Assembly: GCA_021154065.1 (NCBI GenBank)
Contig: JAJKJG010000352.1
Coordinates: 1 to 17,494 of the forward strand
Direction of reading: 5' to 3'
Origin: Methylobacterium sp.
GTDB taxonomy: Bacteria; Pseudomonadota; Alphaproteobacteria; Rhizobiales; Beijerinckiaceae
DNA length: 17,494 nt
The position numbers and the translations under genes were made by a program. The notes under the pieces are model-generated. The model searched no databases. It was not told where the DNA came from and worked only from the letters and a program-made list of their open reading frames with translations. This document shows positions 1 to 12,582 of this stretch, piece by piece (position 1 is the stretch's first letter; the number at the start of each line of letters is the position of its first letter).

Positions 1-855
1 ATCAACACCGGCTGCAATTCGGATGCCCTGCGCGGCGTGAGCTGCAACCCGTACATGTTCCACATCGAGGCGGCGAACTCGATGTATGTCGAGGGCGTCG
101 GCAACTACTTCCTGCGCGAGAACCTCGTGAAGGGCAAGAAGTGGTACACGCTGACCGCCGACTACGCTTTCGGCCACGACCTCGCCAAGGTCGCCCGCAA
201 GTTCCTCGAGAAGCACGGCGGCACCCTTGCCGCCGACGAGCTCGTGCCGACCGACGCCACCGACTTCAGCCCCTATCTCCTGAAGATCCGCCAGGCCCGG
301 CCAGACATCGTCGCCTCGAACCTCGCCGGCAATCAGATCACCAACTTCATCAAGCAATATGCCGAGTACGGGCTGCCGTTCCCGGTCGTCGGCTTCGGCT
401 TCGACACCGCCGTCGCCTGGGGCGCCGGCAAGGGCAACTTCTCCGGCATCTGGCCGCTCGTCTGGCACCATCTCGTCGACACGCCCTCGTCGAAGAAATA
501 CGTCGAGGCGTTCAGCAAGAAATACGGCAAGCCTCCCGAGAACCAGAGCTGGGGCGACTACAACTCGCTCAAGATCGTCGCCCAGTCGATGAACGAGATC
601 AAATCCGCTGATCCGCAGAAGCTTGCCGAGCATCTGCGCAAGGGCGCGAAGTTCGATGTCGGCAAGGCCCGGGAGGCTTACTTCCGCGCTTACGACAATC
701 AGATGATCATGGAGATGTACGCGGTCCGGGCGAAGGAAGCCTCGAAGATGAAGGACCAGTGGGACATCTACGACCCGCTCGGCTCGGTCCCCGGCCCGAA
801 CGAGGACATGGAGGTGCTCGCCCCGCCAAAGGACGGAACCTGCAAGATGACCTGA
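1..855 (+). CDS. Liv-type ABC transporter substrate-binding protein, 5'-truncated by the window edge
   Basis: The frame is open from base 1 and ends at TGA 853-855, giving 284 residues of a protein that is usually about 400 long, so the signal peptide and first part of the N-terminal lobe lie outside the window. The fragment resembles the periplasmic binding proteins of branched-chain amino acid (Liv/HAAT) importers (Peripla_BP_6 type). Visible family features are a KKWYTLTADYAFGHD stretch (interlobe strand and helix), a DFSPYLLKIRQARPDIV stretch, and a later NQSWGDYNSLKIVAQS helix. It would capture the ligand in the periplasm and hand it to the LivH/LivMGF core encoded 1.4 kb downstream. The family binds amino acids but also amides, urea, aromatic acids and other small polar compounds, so the ligand is unknown. 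The separation from livH by a repeat-protein gene is unusual. The family call is solid; leucine specificity should not be assumed. Confidence 0.9.
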   Translation: MNTGCNSDALRGVSCNPYMFHIEAANSMYVEGVGNYFLRENLVKGKKWYTLTADYAFGHDLAKVARKFLEKHGGTLAADELVPTDATDFSPYLLKIRQARPDIVASNLAGNQITNFIKQYAEYGLPFPVVGFGFDTAVAWGAGKGNFSGIWPLVWHHLVDTPSSKKYVEAFSKKYGKPPENQSWGDYNSLKIVAQSMNEIKSADPQKLAEHLRKGAKFDVGKAREAYFRAYDNQMIMEMYAVRAKEASKMKDQWDIYDPLGSVPGPNEDMEVLAPPKDGTCKMT

Positions 856-867
856 TCGGATCAGGTC
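849..867. repeat. 9-bp perfect inverted repeat over the stop codon of the binding-protein gene
   Basis: The arms GACCTGATC (849-857) and GATCAGGTC (859-867) are perfect reverse complements around a single G, and the first arm includes the TGA stop. In RNA the innermost pairs would open into the loop. No T-run follows, so it is not a classical intrinsic terminator. It could stabilise the 3' end of the binding-protein message, which would suit the higher level that binding proteins need relative to permeases. Confidence 0.4.
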
Positions 868-1066
868 ATCCCGGCCGGAGCGCGGGGAAGAGCCGGGATC
901 TCGCGCCGGAATGGGCGTGCTGATTCCTCCCCGGCAAGGGAGGTCGATTCGCGCGGTCACGCGTGAGCGGGGCGGGGCGGAAACTCGTCGTGGACGGCCA
1001 GCGTCGCGTCTCCGCCCAACCCCGGCGGCGCCGACGTGTCCGTCTCGGCCCTCCCCTCGCGGGGAG
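868..1066. repeat. Cluster of short palindromic intergenic repeats between the binding-protein and repeat-protein genes
   Basis: Four dyads lie in this non-coding stretch. ATCCCGGC (868-875) pairs with GCCGGGAT (892-899), which resembles the ATCCCGG...CCGGGAT repeat I recall as common in Rhizobiales. CCTCCC (926-931) pairs with GGGAGG (938-943). TCACGCGTGA (957-966) is a perfect palindrome. CTCCCC (1051-1056) pairs with GGGGAG (1061-1066) around TCGC and is followed by a GGGTGCGGCGGGG tail, another widespread alphaproteobacterial repeat. The last hairpin lies just upstream of the Shine-Dalgarno sequence of the next gene. The elements may be dispersed repeats with an effect on message stability or termination; that role is inferred. 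Confidence 0.55.
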
Positions 1067-1102
1067 GGAGGGTGCGGCGGGGCCTCGAGGCAAGGAGAAT
1101 CC

Positions 1103-2248
1103 ATGGACGAGATCTCGATTACCGCGTCGACCACGGCAAACCAGCCCGCCCTTGCCGGCTTCCGCGGCACCCAGTTCATCGCGGTGTGGGAGGACTTCAG
1201 CGACGGCAGCATCAGGGGCCAGATGCTGTCCACGGCCGGGAAGCCGGCCGGCGACTCCTTTCTGGTCAACGTCCCGGGGCAGCCGGGGACAAAGCGGCGG
1301 CTGCCGGCGATCGTCGAGACCGGCGGGGGGTTCGTCGTCGCCTGGAACGAGCAGGCGGCCGGCACCGCCCCGGGCGGCGGCGCGCAGCTGAAGCTGCGGA
1401 CCTTCGACGCCGACACCTTGTCGGGCGCGGAAATTCAGGTGAGCTCGGCCGAGGTCGAGCCGCTGATCCGGCCTGCCCTCGCGCGCCTGAGCGACGGCGG
1501 CTTCGTCGTCGCGTGGGCGGACAAGCGGGCGGACGAGCGCATCCGCGCGCAGCGCTTCGGCTTCGAGGGCGAGAAGGCCGGCCCCGAGTTTCGCGCCAAC
1601 ACCATCGCAGGGCTGCATCGCGTCCCGATGGTCGCCAGTCTCACCAACGACGCCCTCGCGATCGGCTGGCGCGCGCGCCTGCAGCCGGCCTTGTCGCTGC
1701 ACCTTCAGCTCTTCGACGCCGAAGGTCCGGGCGGCGAGCAGGCTACCGGCATCGAGATCACCGAGGCCGCCATTACAGCGCTCGATTCGGGCCGCTTCGT
1801 CGTGGTGCATGTGCGCAGCGCCGGCGACAGCGAGCCCGGCTTCGAGACGACCGTCGCCCACGCAAGCGTCTTCGAAGCGGGCGGCGCCTTCTCGGGCCGC
1901 CGGTTTGCCGCGACCGCGGGCCGGATCCTGTCGTCGTGGCCGACGGTCGTGGCCCTCTCCGGCGGCCGCTTCGTCCTCGCCTGGACCGAGGTCAACGTCG
2001 ACGCGCCCGGCGCCGGGACGAACGTCATGGCGCGGCTGTTTTCCGAAACCCAGGGAGCGATCGGAAAGCCCGTGCAGGTCAACACCTCGACCGGACATCA
2101 GCGCTTCAGCCTCTCCGCAGCGGCGACCGCCGGTCCGGACGGGGAGACGCTGTTTGCGGCCTGGAACGACGACAGCCCGACGGTCGGCACGAACCCGGCG
2201 CACGCCTTGCGCGGCCGGCCGCTGCCGATCCCGGCCGGGGGCTTCTAG
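1103..2248 (+). CDS. Repeat protein, predicted seven-bladed beta-propeller of unknown function
   Basis: This is a 381-residue protein. ATG 1103 is chosen because AAGGAG (1092-1097) lies 5 bases upstream; the frame stays open further upstream but runs through intergenic palindromes. A motif of the form GGFVVAW recurs seven times with its aromatic position at W29, W81, W138, W189, H236, W294 and W354, at intervals of 47-60 residues. It is usually followed by a polar DG/DK turn and a strand such as IRAQRF or LHLQLFD. Seven such units fit a seven-bladed beta-propeller, though no structure confirms it. Similar GGFVVAW repeats occur in large alphaproteobacterial RTX-type surface proteins, but no calcium-binding GGxGxD nonapeptides are present here. 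No signal peptide or membrane segment is visible, so a cytoplasmic location is likely. It sits between the binding protein and livH of an importer operon, which suggests a co-expressed sensor, scaffold or enzyme. No function is assigned. Confidence 0.8.
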   Translation: MDEISITASTTANQPALAGFRGTQFIAVWEDFSDGSIRGQMLSTAGKPAGDSFLVNVPGQPGTKRRLPAIVETGGGFVVAWNEQAAGTAPGGGAQLKLRTFDADTLSGAEIQVSSAEVEPLIRPALARLSDGGFVVAWADKRADERIRAQRFGFEGEKAGPEFRANTIAGLHRVPMVASLTNDALAIGWRARLQPALSLHLQLFDAEGPGGEQATGIEITEAAITALDSGRFVVVHVRSAGDSEPGFETTVAHASVFEAGGAFSGRRFAATAGRILSSWPTVVALSGGRFVLAWTEVNVDAPGAGTNVMARLFSETQGAIGKPVQVNTSTGHQRFSLSAAATAGPDGETLFAAWNDDSPTVGTNPAHALRGRPLPIPAGGF

Positions 2249-2279
2249 GCCAGCCGTGAAGCGCATCTGAGGCGCCGGC

Positions 2280-3155
2280 GTGCAGCTCATCTTCCTTCTC
2301 GAGCAGGTGCTGAACGGGCTTCTCGTCGGCGCCTACTACCTCCTCATCGCGCTCGGGCTCTCGCTGATCTTCTCGCTCGGCGGCATCGTCAACCTCGCCC
2401 ATGGCGGCTTCTACGCCATCGGCGCCTATCTTGCCGTCCTGCTCGCGCCGCGCCTCGGCTTCGGCGGCGCCTTCGTCGCCGCGCCGGTGCTGGTCGGCCT
2501 CATCGGCGTGATCTTCGAGCGGCTGTTCTTCCGCCGTTTCTACCGCTCCGACCCGATCCTGAGCCTCCTCCTCACCTTCGGCCTTGCGATGGTGATCGAG
2601 CAGTCGCTGCGCATGATCTTCGGCGCGGCGCCGCTGCCGTTCTCGATCCCGCCCGAGCTCCGCGGGCAGCTCTTCATCGGCGACTTCATCTACCCGCGCT
2701 ACCGGCTGATGATCTTCGGCGTCGCGCTCGCCGCCGTCGCCGCGACCTGGTTCCTCGTCTACCGCACCGCGTTTGGGCGCGTCGTGCGGGCGGGCGTGCA
2801 GAACCCCGACATGGTCGGCGCGCTCGGCATCTCGCTGCAACCCTACATGACCGCCGTCGCGGCGCTCGGGGTCGGGCTCGCCGGGCTCGCCGGCGTGCTG
2901 CTCGCGCCGATCTCCGGCGTCCATCCGGCGATGGGCGCCGAGATCCTCACCGCCGCCTTCGTCGTCGTGGTGATCGGCGGGCTCGGATCGTTCTGGGGGG
3001 TGATCGCCGCCGCCGCCCTCGTCGGCGTCGTGCGCGGGGTGACGATCTACGTCAACCCGTCCTACGGCGAGGCGTCGATGTACCTCCTGATGGCGCTCGT
3101 GCTGCTGACGCGCCCGCGCGGGCTCCTCGGCGAGCGCATCCAGAAATTCGAGTAG
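2280..3155 (+). CDS. livH: Branched-chain amino acid-type ABC transporter permease, LivH family
   Basis: This 291-residue inner-membrane permease has the usual LivH length. It starts at GTG 2280, preceded by TGAGG (2268-2272) with 7 bases spacing; the N-terminus MQLIFLLEQVLNGLLVGAYY matches the family. Several hydrophobic membrane helices are evident. The signature around IVNLAHGGFYAIGAYLA (first third) and the VVIGGLGSFWGVIAAA segment near the C-terminus are typical of Liv permeases. It should form one half of the transmembrane channel, the other half being the LivM domain of the next gene, only 3 bases downstream (stop TAG 3153-3155, next ATG 3159). That spacing points to translational coupling. 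As with all Liv-type permeases, family membership does not fix the substrate. Confidence 0.93.
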   Translation: MQLIFLLEQVLNGLLVGAYYLLIALGLSLIFSLGGIVNLAHGGFYAIGAYLAVLLAPRLGFGGAFVAAPVLVGLIGVIFERLFFRRFYRSDPILSLLLTFGLAMVIEQSLRMIFGAAPLPFSIPPELRGQLFIGDFIYPRYRLMIFGVALAAVAATWFLVYRTAFGRVVRAGVQNPDMVGALGISLQPYMTAVAALGVGLAGLAGVLLAPISGVHPAMGAEILTAAFVVVVIGGLGSFWGVIAAAALVGVVRGVTIYVNPSYGEASMYLLMALVLLTRPRGLLGERIQKFE

Positions 3156-3158
3156 CCG

Positions 3159-5675
3159 ATGCGGCGGGACCATGCGCCTCTACTGATCGCGGCCGTCGCT
3201 CTCGCGGTGCTGCCCTTCGTGCTCGACCGGATCGGACTGCCCCTGCGCACCTCGATCGATGTGGTGGTGTTCGCGATCGCCTGCCTCGGCTTGAACGTGC
3301 TTGTCGGCTACACCGGCCTCGTCTCCTTCGGCCACGGCGCCTGGTTCGGGCTTGGCGCTTATGCGGCGGCGATCTCGCAGAAATACTGGTTCACCGGCAG
3401 CATCGTCCTGCCGGCCTTCTTCGCCGTCCTTTTCATCGCCGTCACCGCGGCGCTCGCCGGCGCGCTGATCCTGCGCCGGCGCGGCGTCTATTTCTCGCTT
3501 CTGACGCTTGCCTTGACGGCGCTCCTGTTCGCGATCGGGTATCGCTGGACGGAGTTCACCGGCGGCGAGAGCGGGCTCGGCGGCGTCACGCGTGCGACCG
3601 TGCTCGGCCTGAACCTCGAGCGTGACGCTGACTACTACTGGGTCGTTGCAGCCGTCGGGTTCGTCGTCGCCTTCCTGCTCTGGCGCTTCCACCGCTCGCC
3701 GGCCGGCAGCGTCCTCGTCGCGATCCGCGAGAACGAGCAGCGCGCCCGCTTTCTCGGCTACCCGACGAACCGCTACAAGCTCCTCGGCTTCGTCATCTCG
3801 GCGACGGTCGTCGGCATTGCCGGCGTGCTCTCGGTGTTCAACCACCGCTTCGCGGCGGCCGAGCCGCTCGCCGTCGCCTTCTCGGGCGAGCTCATCGCCA
3901 TGGTGGTGATCGGCGGCATGCGCAGCTTCCTCGGGCCGGCGCTCGGGGCGCTGTTCTACATCCTGTTCCGCGAATTCCTGTCGATCTGGACGCCGAGCTG
4001 GCTGTTCTATTTCGGCATCCTCTTCGTCGGCTTCATCATGTTCTCGCCGACCGGCCTCGTCGGGGTTGCGCAGCGCCTCTTGACACCGTTCCGCAAGCCG
4101 ATCGAGGAAGAAGCCGCGATGGCCGGCCGCACGCTCTCGGACGAGCCGCTGCCGGCCTTCCTCAAGCCCGCCGATCATGCCGCGGAGCCGATCCTCGAGG
4201 CGCGCGGCATCGCCAAGAGCTTCGGCGGCATCAAGGCCGTGCAGGGCGTCGACATCCTGGTGCGCGACCGCAGCCTGCACGCGCTGATCGGCCCGAACGG
4301 CGCCGGCAAGACCACGGCCTTCAACCTGATCTCCGGGATGTTTGTGCCGGACGAAGGCGAGATCCTCCTCGGCGGCCGCTCGATCGCCGGCTTGAGCCCG
4401 GAGGCGATCACCGCGGCCGGGATCGGCCGCTCCTTCCAGATCACCAATCTGTTCCCGGCGCTCTCGGTCGAGGAGAACGTGCGGCTCGCGATCCAGGCGC
4501 GCCATCGGCACCGCTTCGATCCATGGGCGCAGGCGCGCGCGTTCGCCGACATCGAGCGCGAGACCGCGGCGCTCATCCGCTATCTCGGCGTCGCCGGCAT
4601 GGAGCAGGCCGAGGCCGGCGCGCTCTCGTATGGCGGGCAGCGCCTCCTCGACATGGGCCTCGCGCTCGCGACGAAGCCGCGGCTGCTGCTGCTCGACGAG
4701 CCGCTCGCCGGGCTTGCCGCCGCCGAGCGCCAGCGCATCGGCGACATCGTCAAGCGCATCTCATCGGACGTGCCCGTGCTCCTCGTCGAGCACGACATCG
4801 ACCGGGTGTTCCAGATCGCCGATGCCGTCACCGTCATGAACGAAGGCCGTGTGCTCGTCGACGGCACCGTCGAGGACGCCCGGTCGAACCCGCGCGTCCA
4901 GGAGGTCTATATCGGCACCGGCGCCGTGACGCTGGCGGCAAAGCCGCGCGAGAGCGCCGCCGAGCCGGCGATGCTTCTTGCCGCCTCGGGGGTGAATACC
5001 TACTACGGCAAGAGCCACGTCCTGGTCGACGTCGCCTTCGACGTACGTCAGCACGAGATCGTGGCGCTGCTCGGCCGCAACGGGGCCGGCAAGTCGACGC
5101 TGCTCAAGACGTTGATCGGCATCGCTCCCCCGGCCGCGGGCTCGATCCGGCTCGGAACCCAGGAGATCGCCGGCCTGCCCTCGGCCGAAATCGCGCGCCT
5201 CGGCGTCGGCTACGTCCCGCAGGGGCGCGGGCTCTTCGCCGGCATGTCGGTGGCGCAGAACCTCGAGCTCGGCCGCCTCAAGCGCCAGACCGGCCACGGC
5301 GTGCGCTGGGACCTCGAGCGCATCTTCGCCTACTTCCCGCGTCTCGCCGAGCGCCTCGACACCCCCGCCGATTTCCTCTCCGGCGGCGAGCAGCAGATGG
5401 TGGCGGTCGCCCGCGCGCTCTCCGGCGACGTGCGCGTGCTCCTCCTCGACGAGCCTTTCGAGGGCCTCGCACCGACCGTCATCGAGCAGCTCTTCGAGAG
5501 CTTCGACAAGCTCCGCCACGAGGTCTCGATCGTCATCGTCGACCATCACCTCGATCTTGCCCTGGCGCTTTCCGACCGCACCGTCGCGCTCGAGCGCGGC
5601 CGCGTGATCCACAGCGGGCTGTCGAGGGACCTTCGCGACGACCTCGCTTTGCGGCGCAAGGTGCTGTGGCTGTGA
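3159..5675 (+). CDS. LivM-LivG-LivF triple fusion: ABC importer permease plus two ATPases in one chain
   Basis: This 838-residue protein joins three normally separate subunits. Residues 1 to about 315 form a LivM permease with a GYTGLVSFGHG signature and the cytoplasmic coupling loop around R190-E191-N192. Residues about 343-600 form a LivG ATPase: Walker A GPNGAGKTT 378-386, signature LSYGGQ 489-494, Walker B LLLLDEP 509-515, then the switch histidine in VEHD. Residues 605-838 form a LivF ATPase: Walker A GRNGAGKST 639-647, signature LSGGEQQ 740-746, Walker B VLLLDEP 760-766, then VDHH. All catalytic motifs are intact, so both ATP sites should work. With LivH it makes a complete importer core from two chains. 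LivM-LivG fusions are familiar; adding LivF is less common. Start ATG 3159 is 3 bases after livH. An internal ATG at 4119 (M321), preceded by GAGGAA (4104-4109), lies in the linker where a free LivG would begin. Confidence 0.93.
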   Translation: MRRDHAPLLIAAVALAVLPFVLDRIGLPLRTSIDVVVFAIACLGLNVLVGYTGLVSFGHGAWFGLGAYAAAISQKYWFTGSIVLPAFFAVLFIAVTAALAGALILRRRGVYFSLLTLALTALLFAIGYRWTEFTGGESGLGGVTRATVLGLNLERDADYYWVVAAVGFVVAFLLWRFHRSPAGSVLVAIRENEQRARFLGYPTNRYKLLGFVISATVVGIAGVLSVFNHRFAAAEPLAVAFSGELIAMVVIGGMRSFLGPALGALFYILFREFLSIWTPSWLFYFGILFVGFIMFSPTGLVGVAQRLLTPFRKPIEEEAAMAGRTLSDEPLPAFLKPADHAAEPILEARGIAKSFGGIKAVQGVDILVRDRSLHALIGPNGAGKTTAFNLISGMFVPDEGEILLGGRSIAGLSPEAITAAGIGRSFQITNLFPALSVEENVRLAIQARHRHRFDPWAQARAFADIERETAALIRYLGVAGMEQAEAGALSYGGQRLLDMGLALATKPRLLLLDEPLAGLAAAERQRIGDIVKRISSDVPVLLVEHDIDRVFQIADAVTVMNEGRVLVDGTVEDARSNPRVQEVYIGTGAVTLAAKPRESAAEPAMLLAASGVNTYYGKSHVLVDVAFDVRQHEIVALLGRNGAGKSTLLKTLIGIAPPAAGSIRLGTQEIAGLPSAEIARLGVGYVPQGRGLFAGMSVAQNLELGRLKRQTGHGVRWDLERIFAYFPRLAERLDTPADFLSGGEQQMVAVARALSGDVRVLLLDEPFEGLAPTVIEQLFESFDKLRHEVSIVIVDHHLDLALALSDRTVALERGRVIHSGLSRDLRDDLALRRKVLWL

Positions 5676-5699
5676 CGGCTGCCCGGACCGAACCCAACT

Positions 5700-5857
5700 C
5701 TCCTCATCCTGAGGTGCGAGCGCAGCGAGCCTCGAAGGACGCAACCCTGTCCATGCAGCGCCCGACCGCCGGTGCGTGCTTCGAGGCTCGTCGCGGAGCC
5801 TGCCTTGGGCCGGCCGGAGGCCGGACCCGGGGGCTCCTCGCACCTCAGCATGAGGAG
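5700..5857. repeat. Composite palindromic intergenic repeat (CTCATCCTGAGGTGCGAG type)
   Basis: The outer arms are 5700-5720 (begins CTCCTCATCCTGAGG) and 5837-5857 (reverse complement, 20 of 21 bases matching). Nested inside are perfect 12-base arms CGAGCCTCGAAG (5726-5737) and CTTCGAGGCTCG (5779-5790). I recognise this as a dispersed intergenic palindrome common in Rhizobiales, usually found between genes and often near 3' ends. It separates the transporter genes from the first catabolic dehydrogenase and could form a long hairpin in RNA that stabilises or attenuates the transcript. It carries no gene of its own. Confidence 0.8.
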
Positions 5858-5895
5858 AGGGAAAGCGCCGAGCAAGCAAGAGCGAGGACGAGATC

Positions 5896-6828
5896 ATGCC
5901 GACCGCCGCCATCGTAGGCTCCGGCCTCATCGGCCGCTCCTGGGCCATCGTCTTTGCCCGGGGCGGCTGGGACGTGCGCCTGTCCGATCCGAGTCCCGAG
6001 GCGCTCGAGGCCGCGCCGCGTCTCATCCGTGAGGGACTCGACGAGCTTGCCGCGGCCGGCATCGTCGACGACCCGGCCGGCGCCGCGGCGCGGGTCTCGG
6101 TGGCGCCGTCGCTGGCGGACGCCGTAGCGGGCGTCGACCTCGTGCAGGAGAACGGGCCCGAGCGGGTCGAGGACAAGCGCCGAATCTTCGCCGAGCTCGA
6201 TGCCGCGGCGCCGCGCGAGGCGATCCTCGCCTCCTCGACCTCGGCGATCGTCGCCTCGAAATTCACCGAGGACCTCGCCGGCCGCGGGCGCTGCCTCGTC
6301 GCTCATCCCGTGAACCCGCCGCATCTCGTGCCCATCGTCGAGCTCTGCGGGGCGCCCTGGACCTCGCCGGACGCGATCGCGCGGGCGCGACGGATCTACG
6401 AGAGCGTCGACCAGGCGCCGATCACCGTGAACCGAGAGATCGAGGGCTTCGTCCTCAACCGGCTCCAGGTGGCGCTGCTCGCGGAAGCCTTCCGGCTCGT
6501 CGGCGACGGTGTCGTCTCGCCGCAGGATCTCGACAAGACGCTCTCGGACGGGCTCGGGCTGCGCTGGTCCTTCATGGGGCCGTTCCAGACGATCGAGCTC
6601 AACGCGCCCGGCGGCATTCCCGACTACTGCGCCCGCTACGGCGACTTCTTCCGCCGCACCACCGGCGATCCGCCGGCAGCGGCCGTGTGGGACGAGGCGA
6701 ACCTCGCGCGCGTCATGAAGGCCTGGGGCAAGTCGCCGTCGAAAGAGGAGGTTGCGCGCCGCACCGCCTGGCGCGACAAGCGCCTCACGGCGCTCATGGC
6801 GCATAAGCGCGCGCAACCCGGCAATTGA
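5896..6828 (+). CDS. 3-hydroxyacyl-CoA dehydrogenase-like NAD-dependent dehydrogenase, lambda-crystallin / L-gulonate 3-dehydrogenase family
   Basis: This 310-residue soluble oxidoreductase has an N-terminal Rossmann fold with GSGLIG (8-13) and an aspartate at D31 that favours NAD over NADP. The catalytic His-Glu pair of the HAD superfamily appears as H137 (in AHPVNPPH) and E149 (in PIVEL), with an SSTS segment before it. The C-terminal helical domain has the segments EGFVLNRLQ and LGLRWSFMGP, which together with AHPVNPP recall lambda-crystallin (CRYL1, L-gulonate 3-dehydrogenase) more closely than fatty-acid HADs or carnitine dehydrogenase. Such enzymes oxidise a beta-hydroxy acid to a beta-keto acid, which fits the BKACE gene 23 bases downstream. 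The start ATG 5896 has a GCGAGGA-like ribosome-binding site at 5882-5888. The substrate is unknown; a 3-hydroxy acid without CoA is the best guess. Confidence 0.88.
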   Translation: MPTAAIVGSGLIGRSWAIVFARGGWDVRLSDPSPEALEAAPRLIREGLDELAAAGIVDDPAGAAARVSVAPSLADAVAGVDLVQENGPERVEDKRRIFAELDAAAPREAILASSTSAIVASKFTEDLAGRGRCLVAHPVNPPHLVPIVELCGAPWTSPDAIARARRIYESVDQAPITVNREIEGFVLNRLQVALLAEAFRLVGDGVVSPQDLDKTLSDGLGLRWSFMGPFQTIELNAPGGIPDYCARYGDFFRRTTGDPPAAAVWDEANLARVMKAWGKSPSKEEVARRTAWRDKRLTALMAHKRAQPGN

Positions 6829-6851
6829 GACGCGAGAGGGACCCGAGAACC

Positions 6852-7784
6852 ATGGCGAAGCCCCGCAAAGTCATCATCACCTGCGCGGTCACGGGCGCGA
6901 TCCACACGCCGTCGATGTCGCCGCACCTGCCGATCACGCCGGAGGAGATCGCCGACGCGGCGATCGGCGCTGCGGAAGCCGGCGCGGCGGTCGTCCACCT
7001 CCATGCCCGCCGCCCCTCCGACGGCTTGCCCGACCAGGACCCGAAAGCCTTCGCGCCGTTTTTGCGGGTCATCAAGCAGCGCTCGAACTGCATCATCAAC
7101 ATCACGACGGGCGGCGCGCCGACGATGTCGATCGAGGAGCGCCTCAGGCCGGCGCATCATTTCGCGCCGGAGGTCGCCTCGCTCAACATGGGCTCGATGA
7201 ATTTCGGGCTCTACCCGATGCTTGCCCGTTTCAAGGAGTTCAAACACGCCTGGGAGCGGCCCTACCTCGAGGGCTCGCGCGACCGCATCTTCAAGAACAC
7301 CTTCGCCGACATCGAGCACATCCTCACCTCCTGCGCCGAGAACGGCACCCGCTTCGAGGTCGAATGCTACGACATCGGCCACCTCTACACGCTGGCGCAT
7401 TTTGCCGAGCGCGGCGTGATCAAGCCGCCCTTCTTCGTGCAGAGCGTCTTCGGCATCCTCGGCGGCATCGGCCCGCACCCCGAGGACGTCGCCCATATGA
7501 AGCGCACCGCCGACCGGCTGTTCGGGAACGAGTACCATTGGTCGGTGCTCGGCGCCGGCCGCAACCAGCTGCCGATCGCCGCGATGGCGGCCGCGATGGG
7601 CGGCAACGTCCGCGTCGGCCTCGAGGACTCGCTCTGGATCGGCGCCGGCAAGCTCGCCGAATCGAACGCCCAGCAGGTCACGAAGGCGCGCCAGATCATC
7701 GAGGGGCTCGGCCTCGACGTCGCCTCGTCCGACGAGGCGCGGGACATCCTCGAGCTCAAGGGCGGCGACCGGGTGAACTTCTGA
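6852..7784 (+). CDS. Beta-keto acid cleavage enzyme (BKACE, DUF849 family)
   Basis: This 310-residue TIM-barrel enzyme belongs to the family of 3-keto-5-aminohexanoate cleavage enzyme (Kce). Family members condense a beta-keto acid with acetyl-CoA to give acetoacetate and a new acyl-CoA, using a bound divalent metal. Metal-binding H49 and H51 are in VVHLHAR, and the later acidic ligand is E258 in GLED. Start ATG 6852 is preferred over an in-frame TTG at 6825: it has GAGAGG at 6834-6839, and MAKPRKVIITCAVTGA matches the family's usual N-terminus. It lies 23 bases after the dehydrogenase that would make its beta-keto acid. Characterised relatives act on 3-keto-5-aminohexanoate, dehydrocarnitine, beta-ketoadipate and others; the side-chain pocket would have to be compared to predict which applies here. 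Confidence 0.92.
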   Translation: MAKPRKVIITCAVTGAIHTPSMSPHLPITPEEIADAAIGAAEAGAAVVHLHARRPSDGLPDQDPKAFAPFLRVIKQRSNCIINITTGGAPTMSIEERLRPAHHFAPEVASLNMGSMNFGLYPMLARFKEFKHAWERPYLEGSRDRIFKNTFADIEHILTSCAENGTRFEVECYDIGHLYTLAHFAERGVIKPPFFVQSVFGILGGIGPHPEDVAHMKRTADRLFGNEYHWSVLGAGRNQLPIAAMAAAMGGNVRVGLEDSLWIGAGKLAESNAQQVTKARQIIEGLGLDVASSDEARDILELKGGDRVNF

Positions 7785-7901
7785 CGCCCTCGGGAGACCT
7801 CTCTCGAAGGCGCAGCACGGCCATCATGACCGATCCGGAAAAGCGTGCGACTTCAAAGGCCGCCGCTTATGATGATCGGGCACTCTTGTCATGACGCAGA
7901 G

Positions 7902-7924
7902 GCCTCCTGAGGGTTAAAGGAGGC
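7902..7924 (+). promoter_or_regulatory. Stem-loop containing a Shine-Dalgarno-like arm upstream of the HisD-like gene
   Basis: GCCTCCT (7902-7908) and AGGAGGC (7918-7924) form a perfect 7-bp stem around a 9-base AT-containing loop. The 3' arm carries AGGAGG, a strong Shine-Dalgarno sequence, which would be masked when folded. A second AGGAGGA (7929-7935) lies 3 bases before ATG 7939 and stays free. The structure may tune translation or weakly end the upstream message. This is inferred from the sequence alone. Confidence 0.35.
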
Positions 7925-7938
7925 GGCGAGGAGGACGA

Positions 7939-9246
7939 ATGGCACGCTGGCTCAAGCGCGGGCGCGACGCGGGCGCAGTCGCCGAGGACGACGCCAAGAT
8001 CAGCGCCGCGGTCGAGATGATGCTCGTCGACATCCAGGCCCGCGGCGACAAGGCGGTGCGCGAGCTGTCGATCAGGTTCGACAAGTGGGACCGCGCCGAC
8101 TACCGCCTCACCGACGCCGAGATCCGCGGCTGCCTCGCCGAGCTCTCGGCCCGCGCCATCGAGGACATCAAGTTCGCGCAGGCGCAGGTCAGGAATTTCG
8201 CCGAGCACCAGCGCGCCGCGATGCGGGATGTCGAGGTCGAGACGCTGCCGGGCGTCGTGCTCGGCCACAAGCACATCCCGATCCAGAGCATCGGCTGCTA
8301 CGTGCCGGGCGGCAAGTACCCGCTCTTGGCCTCGGCGCACATGTCGGTCATCACCGCGAAGGTCGCGGGCGTGCCGCGCATCGTCACCGCGGCGCCGCCT
8401 TATCAAGGCCGCCCGGCGCCGGCGATCGTCGCCGCGCAACACCTCGCCGGCGCCGACGTGATCTACTGCCTCGGCGGCGTCCAGGCGGTCGGCGCCATGG
8501 CGCTCGGCACGGACGCGATCGAGAGCGTCGACATGCTGGTCGGGCCGGGCAATGCCTATGTCGCCGAGGCGAAGCGTCAGCTCTACGGCCGCGTCGGCAT
8601 CGACCTCTTCGCCGGCCCGACCGAAACCCTCGTCATTGCCGACGAGACCGTCGACGGCGAGATCTGCGCCACCGACCTCCTCGGCCAGGCCGAGCACGGC
8701 CCGACCTCGCCGGCGATCCTACTCACCACCTCCGAGAAGCTCGCCCGCGACACCATGGCCGAGGTCGAGCGCCTGCTCGCGATCCTGCCGACGGCCGAGA
8801 TCGCCAGGAAAGCCTGGGAGGATTGCGGCGAGGTCATCGTCTGCGACTCCGAGGACGAGATGGTGGCAGAGGCCGACCGCATCGCCTCCGAGCACGTCCA
8901 GGTCATGACCCGCGACCCGGACTACTTCCTCGCGCGCATGACGAACTACGGCGCGCTGTTCCTCGGGCCGCGGACGAACGTCTCGTTCGGCGACAAGGTC
9001 ATCGGCACGAACCACACGCTGCCCACCAAGAAGGCGGCGCGCTACACCGGCGGCCTGTGGGTCGGCAAGTTCCTCAAGACCGTCACCTACCAGCGCGTCC
9101 TCACCGACGAGGCGTCGGCCCGCATCGGCGAGGTCTGCTCGCGCCTGTGCATGCTCGAGGGCTTCGCCGGTCACGCCGAGCAGGCGAACATCCGCGTGCG
9201 GAGGTACGGCGGCCGCAACATCCCCTATGCGACGGCGGCGGAGTAA
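7939..9246 (+). CDS. Histidinol dehydrogenase paralogue, sulfopropanediol 3-dehydrogenase (HpsN)-like
   Basis: This 435-residue member of the HisD family has a conserved metal site: Q250 and H253 (LLGQAEHGP), D352 (FGDK) and H412 (FAGHAEQ). The catalytic Glu-His pair is E318-H319 (SEHVQ). These enzymes carry out a four-electron, NAD-dependent oxidation of a primary alcohol to a carboxylate through an aldehyde. The N-terminus (MARWLKRG) and its setting among catabolic and transport genes, with no his genes nearby, fit the catabolic branch. The best-known member of that branch is HpsN, which oxidises (R)-2,3-dihydroxypropane-1-sulfonate to sulfolactate. The start is set by AGGAGGA at 7929-7935. 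Biosynthetic histidinol dehydrogenase is unlikely but cannot be excluded without a phylogeny. The actual alcohol substrate is unknown. Confidence 0.85.
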
Positions 9247-9252
9247 CCCCTC

Positions 9253-9503
9253 TCCCCTCCCCCCTTGTGGGGGAGGCGGACTCGGCCGAAGGCCGAGCCG
9301 GAGGGGGGCGCCGGGCATGGAGCGCGTTGCCGACGAAGAGCCCGACCCGTGCAGCCGCAGGGCGAGGGCCGGACGGATCGCCTTGGCCTTGCCCCTGCGG
9401 CTGATGCGCGGCGGACGAGCGTCGACGAAGAGCCCTATGCCCGGCGCCCCCTCCTCGCTCGGCCTTCGGCCGAGTCGGTCCTCCCCCACAAGGGGGGAGG
9501 GGA
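9253..9503. repeat. Large (about 250 bp) inverted-repeat element with nested direct and inverted repeats
   Basis: The left arm 9253-9318 (begins TCCCCTCCCCCCTTGTGGG) and right arm 9437-9503 are near-perfect reverse complements of about 66 bases, differing at only a few positions around 9276-9280 and 9298-9303. Each arm also contains a smaller palindrome, CTCGGCCGAAGGCCGAG or its complement. Between the arms, GCAGCCGCAGG (9351-9361) is inverted at 9394-9403, and CGACGAAGAGCCC occurs as a direct repeat at 9331-9343 and 9423-9435. No transposase is encoded. It looks like a paired REP/BIME-like or MITE-like element built from a dispersed alphaproteobacterial repeat. It fills most of the 418-base gap between the HisD-like gene and the SDR; open frames through it are low-complexity artefacts. 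Confidence 0.8.
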
Positions 9504-9621
9504 AGCGTGCGGTGCCACAGGAGGCGCGATCCGAGACACCGCATCGCTTGTTTATGGTTTGAAGAGTTGCTGAGCCGCCTTGACGTCGTGCTCCGTCCTC
9601 GATGACGTTCGCTCACCCCTG
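9504..9621. other. Non-coding spacer upstream of the SDR gene, no gene seen
   Basis: This is the non-repetitive part of the 418-base gap before the SDR. It holds a locally AT-richer patch around 9545-9567 and a TTGACG hexamer at 9580-9585 that could be a -35 element, but no convincing -10 follows at 16-18 bases. If the SDR and amidase have their own promoter, it should be here. Nothing coding is visible. Confidence 0.4.
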
Positions 9622-9648
9622 CCCCTCTCCTCACGCACGGGAGAGGGG
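9622..9648. repeat. Perfect 9-bp stem-loop just upstream of the SDR ribosome-binding site
   Basis: CCCCTCTCC (9622-9630) and GGAGAGGGG (9640-9648) pair perfectly around a 9-base loop. This matches a short dispersed palindrome (CCTCTCC...GGAGAGG) I recall as common in Rhizobiales. It ends 5 bases before the CGGAG (9654-9658) that serves the SDR start, so it would form within the message leader and could affect translation. Confidence 0.6.
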
Positions 9649-9664
9649 GTCACCGGAGTGCTTT

Positions 9665-10429
9665 ATGACCCTCCCCACCACCCCCTCTTTCCGCCTCGAC
9701 GGCCGGCGTGCGCTCGTGACCGGGGCTGGGCGCGGCATCGGGCTTGCCGCAGCTGCGGCGCTCGCTGACGCCGGGGCGCATGTGACGCTCGTGGCGCGCT
9801 CCGCCGAGGAGGTCGAGGCCGGCGCCGCGGCGATCCGCGCCGGCGGCGGCTCGGCGGATGCGCAGGCTTGCGACGTCACCGATCTCGACGGCTTCGCGCG
9901 GCTCGTCGCGAACGGCGACCCCTACGACGTGTTCTTCAACAACGCCGGCATGAACCGGCCGCAGCCCTTCGCCGAGGTGTCGGTTGCGAACTTCGACACC
10001 ATCATGGGGCTGAACGTCCGCGCCGCATTTTTCGCCGCGCAGGCGGTGGCGCGGCGGCTGCTGTCGACCCAGAAGCCCGGCTCGATCATCAACACCTCGT
10101 CGCAGATGGGGCATGTCGGCGCCGCCGGGCGCTCGGTCTACAACGCCTCGAAATTCGCCGTCGAAGGCTTCACCAAGGCGATGGCGATCGAGCTCGGGCC
10201 GCACCGCATCCGCGTCAACACCATCTGCCCGACCTTCATCGAGACGCCGATGACGCGGCCATTCCTCGCCGATGAGGCGTTCATGCGGACCGTCGTCGCG
10301 AAGATCAAGATCGGGCGGCTCGGCCAGGTCGAGGATCTGATGGGCGCGATCCTCTTCCTCGCCTCCGACGCCTCGGCCATGATGACGGGCTCGGCGCTGA
10401 TGATCGACGGCGGCTGGACCGCGGAGTGA
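9665..10429 (+). CDS. Short-chain dehydrogenase/reductase (classical SDR, gluconate 5-dehydrogenase-like)
   Basis: This 254-residue classical SDR has its cofactor motif TGAGRGIG at 19-26, the structural NNAG at 92-95, and the catalytic triad S146, Y159 and K163 (YNASK). The C-terminal ending IDGGWTAE is typical. Start ATG 9665 is chosen because CGGAG (9654-9658) precedes it by 6 bases and FRLDGRRALVTG aligns with family N-termini. An upstream in-frame ATG at 9602 would force translation through the palindrome at 9622-9648. It would interconvert a secondary alcohol and a ketone with NAD(P). An SDR next to a HisD-like alcohol dehydrogenase recalls dihydroxypropanesulfonate gene sets, where SDRs accompany HpsN. 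The amidase starts 6 bases downstream, so the two genes are probably coupled. Family certain, substrate unknown. Confidence 0.92.
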   Translation: MTLPTTPSFRLDGRRALVTGAGRGIGLAAAAALADAGAHVTLVARSAEEVEAGAAAIRAGGGSADAQACDVTDLDGFARLVANGDPYDVFFNNAGMNRPQPFAEVSVANFDTIMGLNVRAAFFAAQAVARRLLSTQKPGSIINTSSQMGHVGAAGRSVYNASKFAVEGFTKAMAIELGPHRIRVNTICPTFIETPMTRPFLADEAFMRTVVAKIKIGRLGQVEDLMGAILFLASDASAMMTGSALMIDGGWTAE

Positions 10430-10435
10430 GCCACG

Positions 10436-11884
10436 ATGGACGACGCAAGCCGGACCCCGACCGACCTCACCCTCATGGACGCCTGCGCGCTCGCGGACGC
10501 GATCCGCGCTAGGAAGGTCTCCTGCGTCGAGGTGATGACCGCCTTCCTCGACCGCATCGAGCGCCTGAACCCGACGGTCAACGCCATCGTCTCGCTGCAG
10601 GACCGCGGCCGTTCGCTTGCGCAGGCGCGCGAGCGCGACGACGAGCTTGCGCGCGGCGAGCATCGCGGCTGGATGCACGGCTTCCCGCAGGCCATCAAGG
10701 ACCTGGCCCCGGCCGCCGGCTTCCCGCTGACCAAGGGCTCGCCGCTGTTCGGCGAGGTGTCGAACGAGGACGGCATCTTCGTCGCCCGCATGCGGCGCGC
10801 CGGCGCGATCATCATCGGCAAGACCAATACGCCCGAGTTCGGGCTCGGATCGCAGACCTACAATCCGGTGTTCGGCTCGACGCTCAACGCCTACGACCAG
10901 GCGAAGACCGCCGGCGGATCGAGCGGCGGCGCCGCCGTCGCGCTCGCGCTCCGCATGCTGCCCGTCGCCGACGGCAGCGACCACGGCGGCTCGCTGCGCA
11001 ACCCGGCGGCGTTCAACAACCTGTTCGGCTTCCGGCCGACCTACGGGCGCGTGCCGGCGAACGCCGAGGAGGTGTTCCTGCCGCAGCTCTCGGTGGCCGG
11101 GCCGATGGCGCGCACCGTCCCGGACCTCGCCCGTCTGCTCTCGGTGATGGCGGGCTACGACGCCCGGCTGCCGTTCTCGATCGACGAGGACCCGGCAGCG
11201 TTCGCCGAGCCGCTGAAGCGGGATGTGAAAGGGCTGCGGCTTGCCTGGTTCGGTGATCTTGGCGGCCATCTGCCGATGGAGCCCGGCATCCTCGATCTCT
11301 GCCGCTCCGCGCTGAAGGTCTTCGAGGACATGGGCTGCGTCGTCGAGGAGGTGGTGCCCGATTTCGATCCGGAGCGGATCTGGCAGGCCTGGCTGCCGTT
11401 GCGCCACTGGCAGACCGGCGCGCCGCTCCTCGAGTTCTTCCGCGATCCCGAGAAGCGCGCCAGGATGAAGCCCGAGGGGCAATGGGAGATCGAAGAGGGG
11501 CTGAAGCTCTCGGCCTACGACATCGCCAAGGCCTCGAGCGTGCGCAGCGCCTGGTACCAAACAGTCAGGCGCCTGTTCGAGCGCTACGACTATTGGCTCC
11601 TGCCGACCGCGCAGGTGTTCCCTTTCGACGTTGCGACCCACTGGCCGAACGAGATCGCCGGCCGCCGGATGGACACCTATCACCGCTGGATGGAGGTGGT
11701 GATCCCGGCGACGATGTCCGGCTGCCCGGCGATCAGCGTGCCGGTCGGCTTCGGCGGCAACGGCCTGCCGATGGGCATGCAGATCGTCGGCCAGAACCGC
11801 GGCGAGCTCGCGGTGCTGCAGCTCGCCCACGCCTATGATGAGGCGACGGGCTGGGTCCGAAGGAAGCCTCCGACCCTAACTTAA
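10436..11884 (+). CDS. Amidase signature-family hydrolase
   Basis: This 482-residue enzyme carries the complete Ser-cisSer-Lys triad of the amidase signature family: K88 (AIKD), cis-serine S162 in GGSSGG (160-165), and nucleophile S186 in DHGGSLRNP, 24 residues on as in the family. It should hydrolyse a carboxamide to an acid plus ammonia or an amine in the cytoplasm. GatA, the tRNA amidotransferase subunit, shares the fold, but no gatB or gatC is adjacent, and the usual GTDxGGS is DGSDHGGS here. The gene begins 6 bases after the SDR stop with GGAG at 10423-10426, so the two are co-translated. It is the last gene of the island; its TAA (11882-11884) overlaps the stop of the converging ung gene. 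The natural amide is unknown; it may be the transported compound or a pathway intermediate. Confidence 0.92.
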   Translation: MDDASRTPTDLTLMDACALADAIRARKVSCVEVMTAFLDRIERLNPTVNAIVSLQDRGRSLAQARERDDELARGEHRGWMHGFPQAIKDLAPAAGFPLTKGSPLFGEVSNEDGIFVARMRRAGAIIIGKTNTPEFGLGSQTYNPVFGSTLNAYDQAKTAGGSSGGAAVALALRMLPVADGSDHGGSLRNPAAFNNLFGFRPTYGRVPANAEEVFLPQLSVAGPMARTVPDLARLLSVMAGYDARLPFSIDEDPAAFAEPLKRDVKGLRLAWFGDLGGHLPMEPGILDLCRSALKVFEDMGCVVEEVVPDFDPERIWQAWLPLRHWQTGAPLLEFFRDPEKRARMKPEGQWEIEEGLKLSAYDIAKASSVRSAWYQTVRRLFERYDYWLLPTAQVFPFDVATHWPNEIAGRRMDTYHRWMEVVIPATMSGCPAISVPVGFGGNGLPMGMQIVGQNRGELAVLQLAHAYDEATGWVRRKPPTLT

Positions 11885-12582
11885 AGCCGCCAGTCGATCG
11901 GCGCCTCGCCTTGCTTCGCCAGCCAGGCGTTGACCTGGGAAAACGGCCGGCTGCCGCGAAAGTCGGCGAGGCGATTGAGCGGCGACGGATGCCCGCATTC
12001 AAGCAGCAGATGCTTGTCGCGGTCGACCAGCACCCCGCGCCTGCGGGCCGCCGCGCCCCAGAGCAGGAAGGCGACCGCCGGCCGCTGCGCCGAGCACGCC
12101 GCAACGGCCTCATCGGCGAGAGCCGACCAGCCGAGCCGCAGATGGGCCCCGGCGGCGCCCGCCTCGACGGTCAGCGCGGTGTTGAGGAGAAGCACGCCCT
12201 GGCGCGCCCAATGGGTGAGATCGCCGCTCGTCGGCGCCGGGCAGCCGAGATCGTCCGCCATCTCGGCGAGAATAGTTTTGAGCGAGGCCGGCAGCCGGCG
12301 CCGGCCGACGTAGGAGAAGGCGAGGCCGTGGGCGTCGCCCGGCGTCGGATAGGGGTCCTGGCCGAGGATCACCACGCGGACCGTCTCGAGCGGCGTCAGC
12401 CTCAGGGCGGAGAAGATCGCGGGCGCCGGCGGCAGCACCTCGGCGCCTGCGGCGATGCGGCGGTCGAGGCCCTGAGCGATCGCATCCGCCGCGCCGTCGG
12501 CAAAGAACGGCAGGGCGCGCCAGCCCGCCGCGGCGGGATCGTCGCGGAAGGCCGCGAGCGCCGCCGCGACCGGGCCGGTCAT
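11881..12582 (-). CDS. ung: Uracil-DNA glycosylase, family 1
   Basis: This 233-residue cytoplasmic base-excision repair enzyme removes uracil from DNA. The water-activating loop is GQDPYP (74-79) with catalytic D76, followed by GDAHGLAFS. The LLLNT segment has the uracil-specifying asparagine, and the DNA-intercalating loop is HPSPLN with catalytic H198. The usual forms are GQDPYH and HPSPLS, so two flanking positions differ while all catalytic residues remain. The C-terminus (PIDWRL) matches the family end. Its ATG (12582-12580) overlaps the TGA of the upstream metallophosphatase gene as ATGA, which implies one transcript and coupled translation. Its own stop overlaps that of the converging amidase. 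Confidence 0.93.
   Translation of the reverse strand: MTGPVAAALAAFRDDPAAAGWRALPFFADGAADAIAQGLDRRIAAGAEVLPPAPAIFSALRLTPLETVRVVILGQDPYPTPGDAHGLAFSYVGRRRLPASLKTILAEMADDLGCPAPTSGDLTHWARQGVLLLNTALTVEAGAAGAHLRLGWSALADEAVAACSAQRPAVAFLLWGAAARRRGVLVDRDKHLLLECGHPSPLNRLADFRGSRPFSQVNAWLAKQGEAPIDWRL

Follow-up and report, generated by a model that had tools for sequence, protein, structure and literature searches.

A conserved BKACE operon core with lineage-specific additions in Methylobacterium and its predicted role in deoxyribonate-type catabolism

In carnitine degradation, an L-carnitine dehydrogenase is followed by a beta-keto acid cleavage enzyme (BKACE) that acts on 3-dehydrocarnitine. BKACE cleavage with acetyl-CoA yields an acyl-CoA and acetoacetate (PMC12871164, PMC6365646). 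In Pseudomonas simiae WCS417, the reported deoxyribonate cluster runs in the order PS417_07240 (gntR), 07245 (a short-chain dehydrogenase/reductase, SDR, acting as deoxyribonate dehydrogenase), 07250 (BKACE), 07255 (lactonase), and 07260 and 07265 (both major facilitator superfamily, MFS); Price et al. 2019 (PMC6365646) report mutant phenotypes for PS417_07240-07265 and propose GTGATCAC as the GntR operator. HpsN, the 3-dehydrogenase of dihydroxypropanesulfonate (DHPS), is separated from histidinol dehydrogenase (HisD) by a pocket motif, which is reported as GRY[A/S]H in HpsN and GSAPL in HisD (PMC11382572). Here we analyze a 17,494-nucleotide stretch of Methylobacterium sp. (contig JAJKJG010000352.1 of assembly GCA_021154065.1; hereafter, “the window”) whose nine-gene, apparently catabolic operon encodes a BKACE, a lambda-crystallin/L-gulonate 3-dehydrogenase-type dehydrogenase (LCRY), a HisD-like enzyme, an SDR, an amidase, a propeller-like protein and a Liv-type ATP-binding cassette (ABC) importer.

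Our analysis shows that the nine genes are an old, widely conserved core, consisting of the solute-binding protein (SBP), LivH, a LivM-LivG-LivF fusion (LivMGF), LCRY and BKACE, together with later additions, and not one conserved pathway. In this soil-type bacterium the core, judged from its sequence relationships, probably serves a deoxyribonate-type oxidative pathway, a reading to which we give a probability of roughly 55%.

A conserved core and a rare nine-gene form

As the original prediction had described, nine open reading frames (ORFs), all on the plus strand, run from the left edge of the window to position 11884, where they overlap by 4 bases a convergent minus-strand ORF (11881-12582) that is presumably, from reading its sequence, a putative uracil-DNA glycosylase. 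The predicted gene identities agreed with Pfam scans (Peripla_BP_6, BPD_transp_2, ABC_tran, 3HCDH, BKACE, Histidinol_dh, adh_short_C2 and Amidase all scored above their cut-offs); the propeller-like protein matched no Pfam family. One correction concerns the importer: with LivM, LivG and LivF joined in a single protein, the Liv membrane and ATPase parts amount to two genes. Catalytic motifs were found by simple pattern matching in 5/5 enzymes of the window.

To place these genes among relatives, we searched for the BKACE in 248 genomes from the family of a close relative, Enterovirga aerilata (G002), which we take to be the Beijerinckiaceae, and obtained a match in 163; 60 regions were picked from the top of the match list (~73-88% identity), a part of the places listed. 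Our gene caller is crude (based on GC content at third codon positions, GC3), hence presence was counted by tblastn, with SDRs, GntR and other neighbours counted within 9-9.5 kb of BKACE, and the counts cover related genomes, which are non-independent observations. LCRY adjoins BKACE in 48/60 regions, making the two a conserved pair, and the operon looks catabolic, as had been predicted. The whole importer (SBP, LivH and LivMGF) accompanies BKACE in 37 regions. A FabG-like SDR (SDRd) occurs in 44 regions and 39 have a GntR regulator, the genes for both being usually transcribed divergently from the operon; the divergent SDRs of these core loci are only 29-34% identical to the SDR of the window. 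The core order of the window recurs in both regions examined from Bradyrhizobium (G001) and Afipia (G003), chosen since short pieces had already revealed LCRY and LivMGF, and is conserved, with LCRY and SDRd, on a Microvirga ossetica plasmid. Among 20 regions taken from 32 BKACE places in the order of G258, presumably the Burkholderiales, SBP-LivH-LivMGF-SDRd-LCRY-BKACE is contiguous in three, with SDRd in 14 and GntR in five.

The other four genes are scattered. The amidase accompanies BKACE in two of the 60 regions (G082 and G044), and the propeller gene, the HisD-like gene and the window-type SDR do so in one (G082). Across the 248 genomes of the family, 36 carry the amidase at E <= 1e-100, with BKACE next to it in G082 and G044 alone (the distance is ~13 kb in G196 and ~20 kb in G231), and 36 carry the HisD-like gene at E <= 1e-150, beside BKACE only in G082. 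The claim that all nine form one coherent pathway set thus fails for four genes and holds as co-conservation for the five core genes, and the accompanying idea of a hybrid is supported, in that its modules have had different histories. We see in the core a variant, widespread among relatives, of a pathway type already known, which a single lineage has extended to the rare nine-gene form. The operon itself is real and its substrate a prediction; a literature search by title and abstract found no paper describing the operon or this variant of the core.

Apart from the window, only G082 showed the full nine-gene set; it keeps order and strand at 76-94% identity (propeller 69%), and its intact SBP is 94% identical to the partial one of the window. 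In G044, the island genes are 73-91% identical to those of the window, gntR is kept with its operator, the amidase lies directly after BKACE, and no SDRd match was found at E <= 1e-45. The hemH gene is 82% identical to that of the window in G082 and 85% in G044 (74-85% in 10/11 genomes tried from the family of G002); these identities are near the island-gene values, and plain inheritance among close genera therefore suffices. G082 gave no gntR match at E <= 1e-20 and no GTGATCAC in its 19.9-kb region, and its SDRd (73%) sits on a different contig, where the surrounding 20 kb contain none of the other core genes. The window likewise contains no GTGATCAC; it starts inside the SBP gene, and gntR would lie beyond that edge. 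In the window's lineage, judging from G082 (the window being cut at that point), the operon no longer has the old GntR and SDRd next to it. This lineage added the HisD-SDR pair, the amidase and the propeller protein, presumably changing or widening the substrate.

Operator, BKACE clade and the predicted substrate

The GntR regulator, the operator and the second dehydrogenase of the relatives lie outside the window and would tie the core to deoxyribonate catabolism. Gene by gene, Pseudomonas locus L217 (GntR-SDR-BKACE-SMP30 lactonase-MFS-MFS) has the order of the P. simiae cluster, and on gene order and families the two are probably orthologous. Fifteen of 21 BKACE places in Pseudomonas were taken; in the nine regions with clade-A BKACEs (69-74% identity), the clade to which the BKACE of the window belongs, GntR and SDRd lie near BKACE in 9/9 and an SMP30 lactonase in 6/9. 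Of 58 BKACE-linked loci, 55 carry GTGATCAC between -250 and +60 relative to the estimated gntR start (L153, L248 and L259 lack it), whereas the next-best of all 256 eight-base palindromes reaches 8/58; the same loci hold 95 copies in 1,702,326 bp, and 0.017 are expected per region. The shared operator shows that the BKACE-linked GntR regulators are of one kind. Across all loci only one gntR match lay away from BKACE, and it lacks GTGATCAC, so with n=1 the specificity of the operator to this pathway is uncontrolled. It is because the BKACE clade sits in a P. simiae-like order in some Pseudomonas, and because of the operator in these 55 loci, that we favour the deoxyribonate-type reading.

The BKACE of the window passes PF05853 and NF053538 (556 bits, cut-off 430). 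Its HLHAR pattern holds the metal His of BKACEs, and ECYD and GAGR hold the Glu/Tyr and Arg whose catalytic roles are described in the literature. It is 70% identical to PdBKACE15 (8rio) and 72% to 3e49, and trees, for which SH-aLRT (approximate likelihood-ratio test) was the only support measure, join it with Pseudomonas L217, 8rio and 3e49 in one 97-row clade (SH-aLRT 99) that excludes all 13 BKACEs of 53-62% identity, three of which have an SDRd-like neighbour. PdBKACE15 groups, on a long branch, beside the BKACEs of Liv-LCRY-SDRd-GntR operons (SH-aLRT 86-93 in sets of 8-11 rows). Genes near BKACE in 98 clade-A regions include SMP30 lactonases (8), isopropylmalate/tartrate-dehydrogenase family genes (6) and altronate-dehydratase family genes (2). 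A Phyllobacterium zundukense plasmid, with GntR next to sugar ABC-SDRd-LCRY-BKACE-two SMP30 lactonases, joins both forms of the locus, and one of its lactonases is 72% identical to the Pseudomonas lactonase; we dropped the hisD of this plasmid as support, given its identity of only 33% and the position of hutC one gene away. Other contexts include SDRd-BKACE-metallo-beta-lactamase-fold protein-sugar-type ABC in Caballeronia, LCRY-BKACE-MFS-altronate/galactarate-dehydratase family with GntR and SDRd alongside at one Pseudomonas locus, and SDRd with sugar ABCs and LacI on a Jannaschia plasmid.

Every reaction and the substrate that we propose for the core are predictions. The ABC importer would take up a small 3-hydroxy acid; the likeliest candidate is a 2-deoxyaldonate or a similar compound, akin to an oxidised form of the sugar in DNA. 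LCRY scores above the cut-off of NF004783 (PRK06129; 416 bits, cut-off 347) and matches lambda-crystallin (PDB 3ado) at 242 bits; its substrate is probably a free 3-hydroxy acid, whose C3 hydroxyl it would oxidise to give a 3-keto acid. Enzymes of the 3HCDH and SDR types often differ in the C3 configuration they use, and in relatives SDRd probably oxidises the other one. BKACE would then move C1 and C2 onto acetyl-CoA to form acetoacetate, the rest of the chain leaving as its CoA thioester. The same two-step chemistry could instead degrade a simple aliphatic 3-hydroxy acid (e.g., 3-hydroxyhexanoate or 3,5-dihydroxyhexanoate) and not a sugar acid, with LCRY acting on the L form and SDRd on the D form. 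In favour of this, small uncharged beta-keto acids figure in the name of NF053538 and are what PdBKACE15 is reported to accept in vitro, and Liv-type importers fit less polar acids. However, the operator and BKACE clade are common to the deoxyribonate-type cluster, SMP30 lactonases recur near clade-A BKACEs, and sugar-type ABC transporters adjoin BKACE at several loci; we consider an aliphatic acid rather unlikely, though a serious candidate. A carnitine-like route, in which LCRY would oxidise L-carnitine or a cationic analogue and BKACE would cleave 3-dehydrocarnitine, matches the enzyme families and the order of the chemistry, but LCRY, distantly alike, reaches only 190 bits against NF005716 (cut-off 592) and 167 bits against NF005471 (cut-off 414), far short of both carnitine-dehydrogenase models, while it passes PRK06129. 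BKACE, for its part, passes a differently named model and has no dehydrocarnitine BKACE model among its matches, although this side was not directly tested. We therefore rejected the carnitine reading, and hold a route of this kind to be very improbable.

Identity as a urea or branched-chain amino acid importer was rejected, as the partial SBP and LivH fall under every NCBIfam cut-off listed and, of the 25 NCBIfam models shown for the LivMGF fusion, only UrtD, UrtE and LptB passed, through the ATPase domains. The SBP homologues in the PDB name no ligand. The fusion is 838-859 aa long in relatives (838 aa at Burkholderiales locus L246). A 21-bp palindrome, TGACCTGATCGGATCAGGTCA, at 848-868 spans the SBP stop codon, fully paired apart from its centre base; its mean number of matches in shuffles was 0.00, and it was found in none of 255 other loci compared.

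Several observations weigh against the deoxyribonate-type reading. Amino acids, amides or aromatic acids are the usual cargo of Peripla_BP_6-type importers, and the window yielded neither a lactonase nor a glycerate kinase. LCRY is present in only 9/20 Burkholderiales regions and 1/9 of the clade-A Pseudomonas regions. Some clade-A rows (18/95, some of them on short pieces) lack all of Liv, LCRY, SDRd and GntR, and three of six plasmid BKACE regions (Azospirillum, Pseudosulfitobacter and Mesorhizobium) lack LCRY, SDRd and GntR and carry altogether other neighbours, so belonging to the BKACE clade is not enough to assign the pathway. GTGATCAC has also been reported for AkgR of R. sphaeroides, and the motif may therefore be characteristic of a GntR subfamily instead of a single substrate. 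Clade A serves more than one context, and our pathway claim covers the GntR/SDRd/LCRY/BKACE set, not every clade-A BKACE. Within the same family, clade-A BKACEs L146, L162, L167, L173, L178 and L179 have no LCRY or SDRd nearby; several, e.g., L146 and L179, lie near a separate Liv system, and the gene preceding BKACE in L179 resembles an amidohydrolase by eye. This group looks like another BKACE pathway variant. On an Azospirillum brasilense plasmid (L257), a BKACE of 71% identity has a very dissimilar setting, beside Zn-dependent hydrolase, 2-dehydropantoate-reductase, acetolactate-synthase and histone-deacetylase family genes.

The HisD-SDR pair, the amidase and the propeller-like protein

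The HisD-like enzyme was followed through the best 80 of 581 loci, 46 of which extend 8 kb or more to either side. At 68/80 the same strand carries, no more than 2 kb away, an SDR at least 45% identical to that of the window, spacing being scored solely by this limit, and four of the 12 loci without one are near a contig end. Among these best 80 of 581, a BKACE (at least 30% identity) is near the HisD-like gene in none and LCRY (at least 40%) in two. HisD-like and LCRY genes are neighbours at L023 and L260, in two Roseomonas-type bacteria, perhaps through one event. Other neighbours vary: LacI, MalK/UgpC-type ABC ATPases, a GntP permease, TctC proteins, Mo-hydroxylases and a cyclase-family hydrolase. 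A Roseomonas haemaphysalidis plasmid carries LacI-hisD-3HCDH-SDR with a sugar ABC; a Klebsiella plasmid carries LacI-hisD-SDR-MFS-hydrolase-aldolase, with hisD and SDR ~10 bp apart; on a Mesorhizobium plasmid, the context comprises LacI, PdxA, SDRs, a lactonase family protein and a carbohydrate-type ABC; and in Rhizobium bangladeshense, the gene lies among other oxidoreductases with no SDR. This company of LacI, sugar-type ABC or GntP transporters and, at a few loci, LCRY speaks for the deoxyribonate-type reading. An FMN-dependent 2-hydroxyacid-dehydrogenase family gene occurs at the Acetobacteraceae/Rhodospirillales loci L010, L013, L014, L017, L020, L031 and L043, and, among the neighbours shown, a PEP-mutase family gene at all of these except L014.

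Pattern matching and alignment show that the zinc ligands Gln/His/His/Asp and the catalytic Glu-His are kept (GQAEH, SEH, FGDK, GHAE), and the protein should therefore be a working HisD-type alcohol dehydrogenase. Its pocket motif, GKYPL, is that of neither HisD nor HpsN; among the best 80 of 581, GKYPL occurs in 59, GRYPM in 15 and GKYPM in 6, and the motif never ends in His. These motifs bear on a sulfonate (DHPS-like) pathway through this enzyme, which had been suggested for the window. The closest solved relatives are indeed HpsN/DHPS-dehydrogenase chains (395 bits vs <=262 for HisD chains), and Lys353 is conserved along with the zinc ligands; yet the HpsN-defining, sulfonate-binding His126 is Leu. 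We rejected the HpsN route for this reason and regard a sulfonate substrate as extremely improbable.

In the operon, the HisD-like enzyme, expected to act as a four-electron alcohol dehydrogenase, and its partner SDR would oxidise or epimerise a terminal CH(OH)-CH2OH end of the substrate, and the amidase, which scores 766 bits against NF005686 (cut-off 465), would open an amide bond and free an acid or amine, most likely so that further substrates can enter the core; these are the weakest steps of the mechanism. Alternatively, the pair and the amidase may be mere neighbours of the core, with separate functions and no shared substrate. The restriction of the nine-gene set to the window and G082 is in line with this, as are the free-standing HisD-SDR pairs elsewhere, and a palindromic element between the two genes (82-nt arms at 9254-9335 and 9420-9501, 76% complementary) could make SDR and amidase a separate transcript; the corresponding gap in G082 is ~1.5 kb. 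Against it stand the order and strand kept in G082 at identities near that of hemH, the HisD-like and LCRY neighbours in the two Roseomonas-type bacteria and the amidase placed directly after BKACE in G044 too. On balance we think the mere-neighbour explanation doubtful, if quite conceivable. A bolder scheme, in which HisD-type oxidase and SDR replaced the regulator and first dehydrogenase, would turn the terminal CH2OH into a carboxylate and C3 into a ketone, so that a 2-deoxyaldarate-like or amide-bound 2-deoxy acid would yield, through BKACE, a hydroxy-dicarboxylate CoA thioester; we found no paper naming such a route in title or abstract, and offer this re-plumbed form as speculation that is probably wrong.

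The propeller-like protein was named from repeated FVVAW-type motifs and partial matches to repeats in long ORFs, not from a fold. It was rejected as a lactonase for want of a Pfam match. Of 7993 scored candidates, 651 were homologous at E <= 1e-10, and those with names, among 120 listed, are all “hypothetical protein”. A full-length relative occurs in only 1/248 family genomes (G082, same position). In the Bradyrhizobium family, 3/198 genomes have a relative (L252, L253 and L254), with BKACE in none of these three 20-kb regions (L253 tested by tblastn only). Such relatives may be a family of hypothetical proteins that travels between importer operons. Those at L252:9125-10264 and L254:9225-10406 lie beside transporter substrate-binding genes that read as NrtA-like and TctC-like, and L253:4445-9428 holds a 54% propeller relative and a 41% HisD relative ~3 kb apart.

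Table 1. Features of the nine-gene run in the window
Feature	Position	Strand	Basis or remark
SBP: ABC solute-binding protein, Peripla_BP_6	1..855	+	cut by left edge of window
Propeller-like small protein, role unassigned	1103..2248	+	between SBP and LivH; without Pfam match
LivH-type permease	2280..3155	+	PF02653 (BPD_transp_2)
LivM-LivG-LivF fusion, 838 aa	3159..5675	+	one BPD_transp_2 and two ABC_tran stretches
LCRY: lambda-crystallin/L-gulonate 3-dehydrogenase-type NAD dehydrogenase	5896..6828	+	NF004783, 3HCDH
BKACE, beta-keto acid cleavage enzyme, clade A	6855..7784	+	NF053538, PF05853, trees
HisD-like Zn/NAD dehydrogenase, motif GKYPL	7939..9246	+	Histidinol_dh
Palindromic intergenic element, ~258 bp, in HisD-like/SDR gap	9248..9505		outer limits set by eye
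SDR dehydrogenase, usual HisD-like partner, not core SDRd	9662..10429	+	adh_short_C2; alternative start 9602
Amidase-signature hydrolase	10436..11884	+	NF005686; Lys/Ser/Ser motif patterns

Comparison with known pathways

The L-carnitine dehydrogenase/3-dehydrocarnitine BKACE pathway has its enzyme superfamilies and two-step logic in common with the core; it differs in that LCRY of the window stays under the family cut-offs. HpsN (DHPS 3-dehydrogenase, PMC11382572) resembles the HisD-like enzyme in family, zinc ligands, catalytic Glu-His and the four-electron alcohol oxidation expected of it, and differs at sulfonate-binding His126, which is Leu within GKYPL. The analysis defines a GKYPL clade with neither the histidinol-dehydrogenase nor the HpsN motif, whose members plasmid records name hisD or hpsN.

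With the P. simiae deoxyribonate pathway, the core shares its BKACE clade, through a Pseudomonas locus of identical gene order, and the wider core shares a homologous GntR with the same operator and a homologous SDR, as well as dehydrogenation followed by BKACE cleavage. The core has LCRY, and where P. simiae has MFS transporters it uses an ABC importer of the Liv type with LivMGF fused, whereas the window, without a lactonase, adds the HisD-SDR pair, amidase and propeller protein, and neither the window nor the G082 region carries the operator. The likeness predicts a GntR/GTGATCAC regulon common to alpha-, beta- and gammaproteobacteria. PdBKACE15 (8RIO/8RIP/9HNF), 70% identical to the BKACE of the window and a tree neighbour of the Liv-LCRY-SDRd-GntR operon enzymes, differs in having been studied with malonate semialdehyde, its physiological role being reported as unknown (PMC11961710); the comparison offers a testable physiological role for the large BKACE clade to which it belongs.

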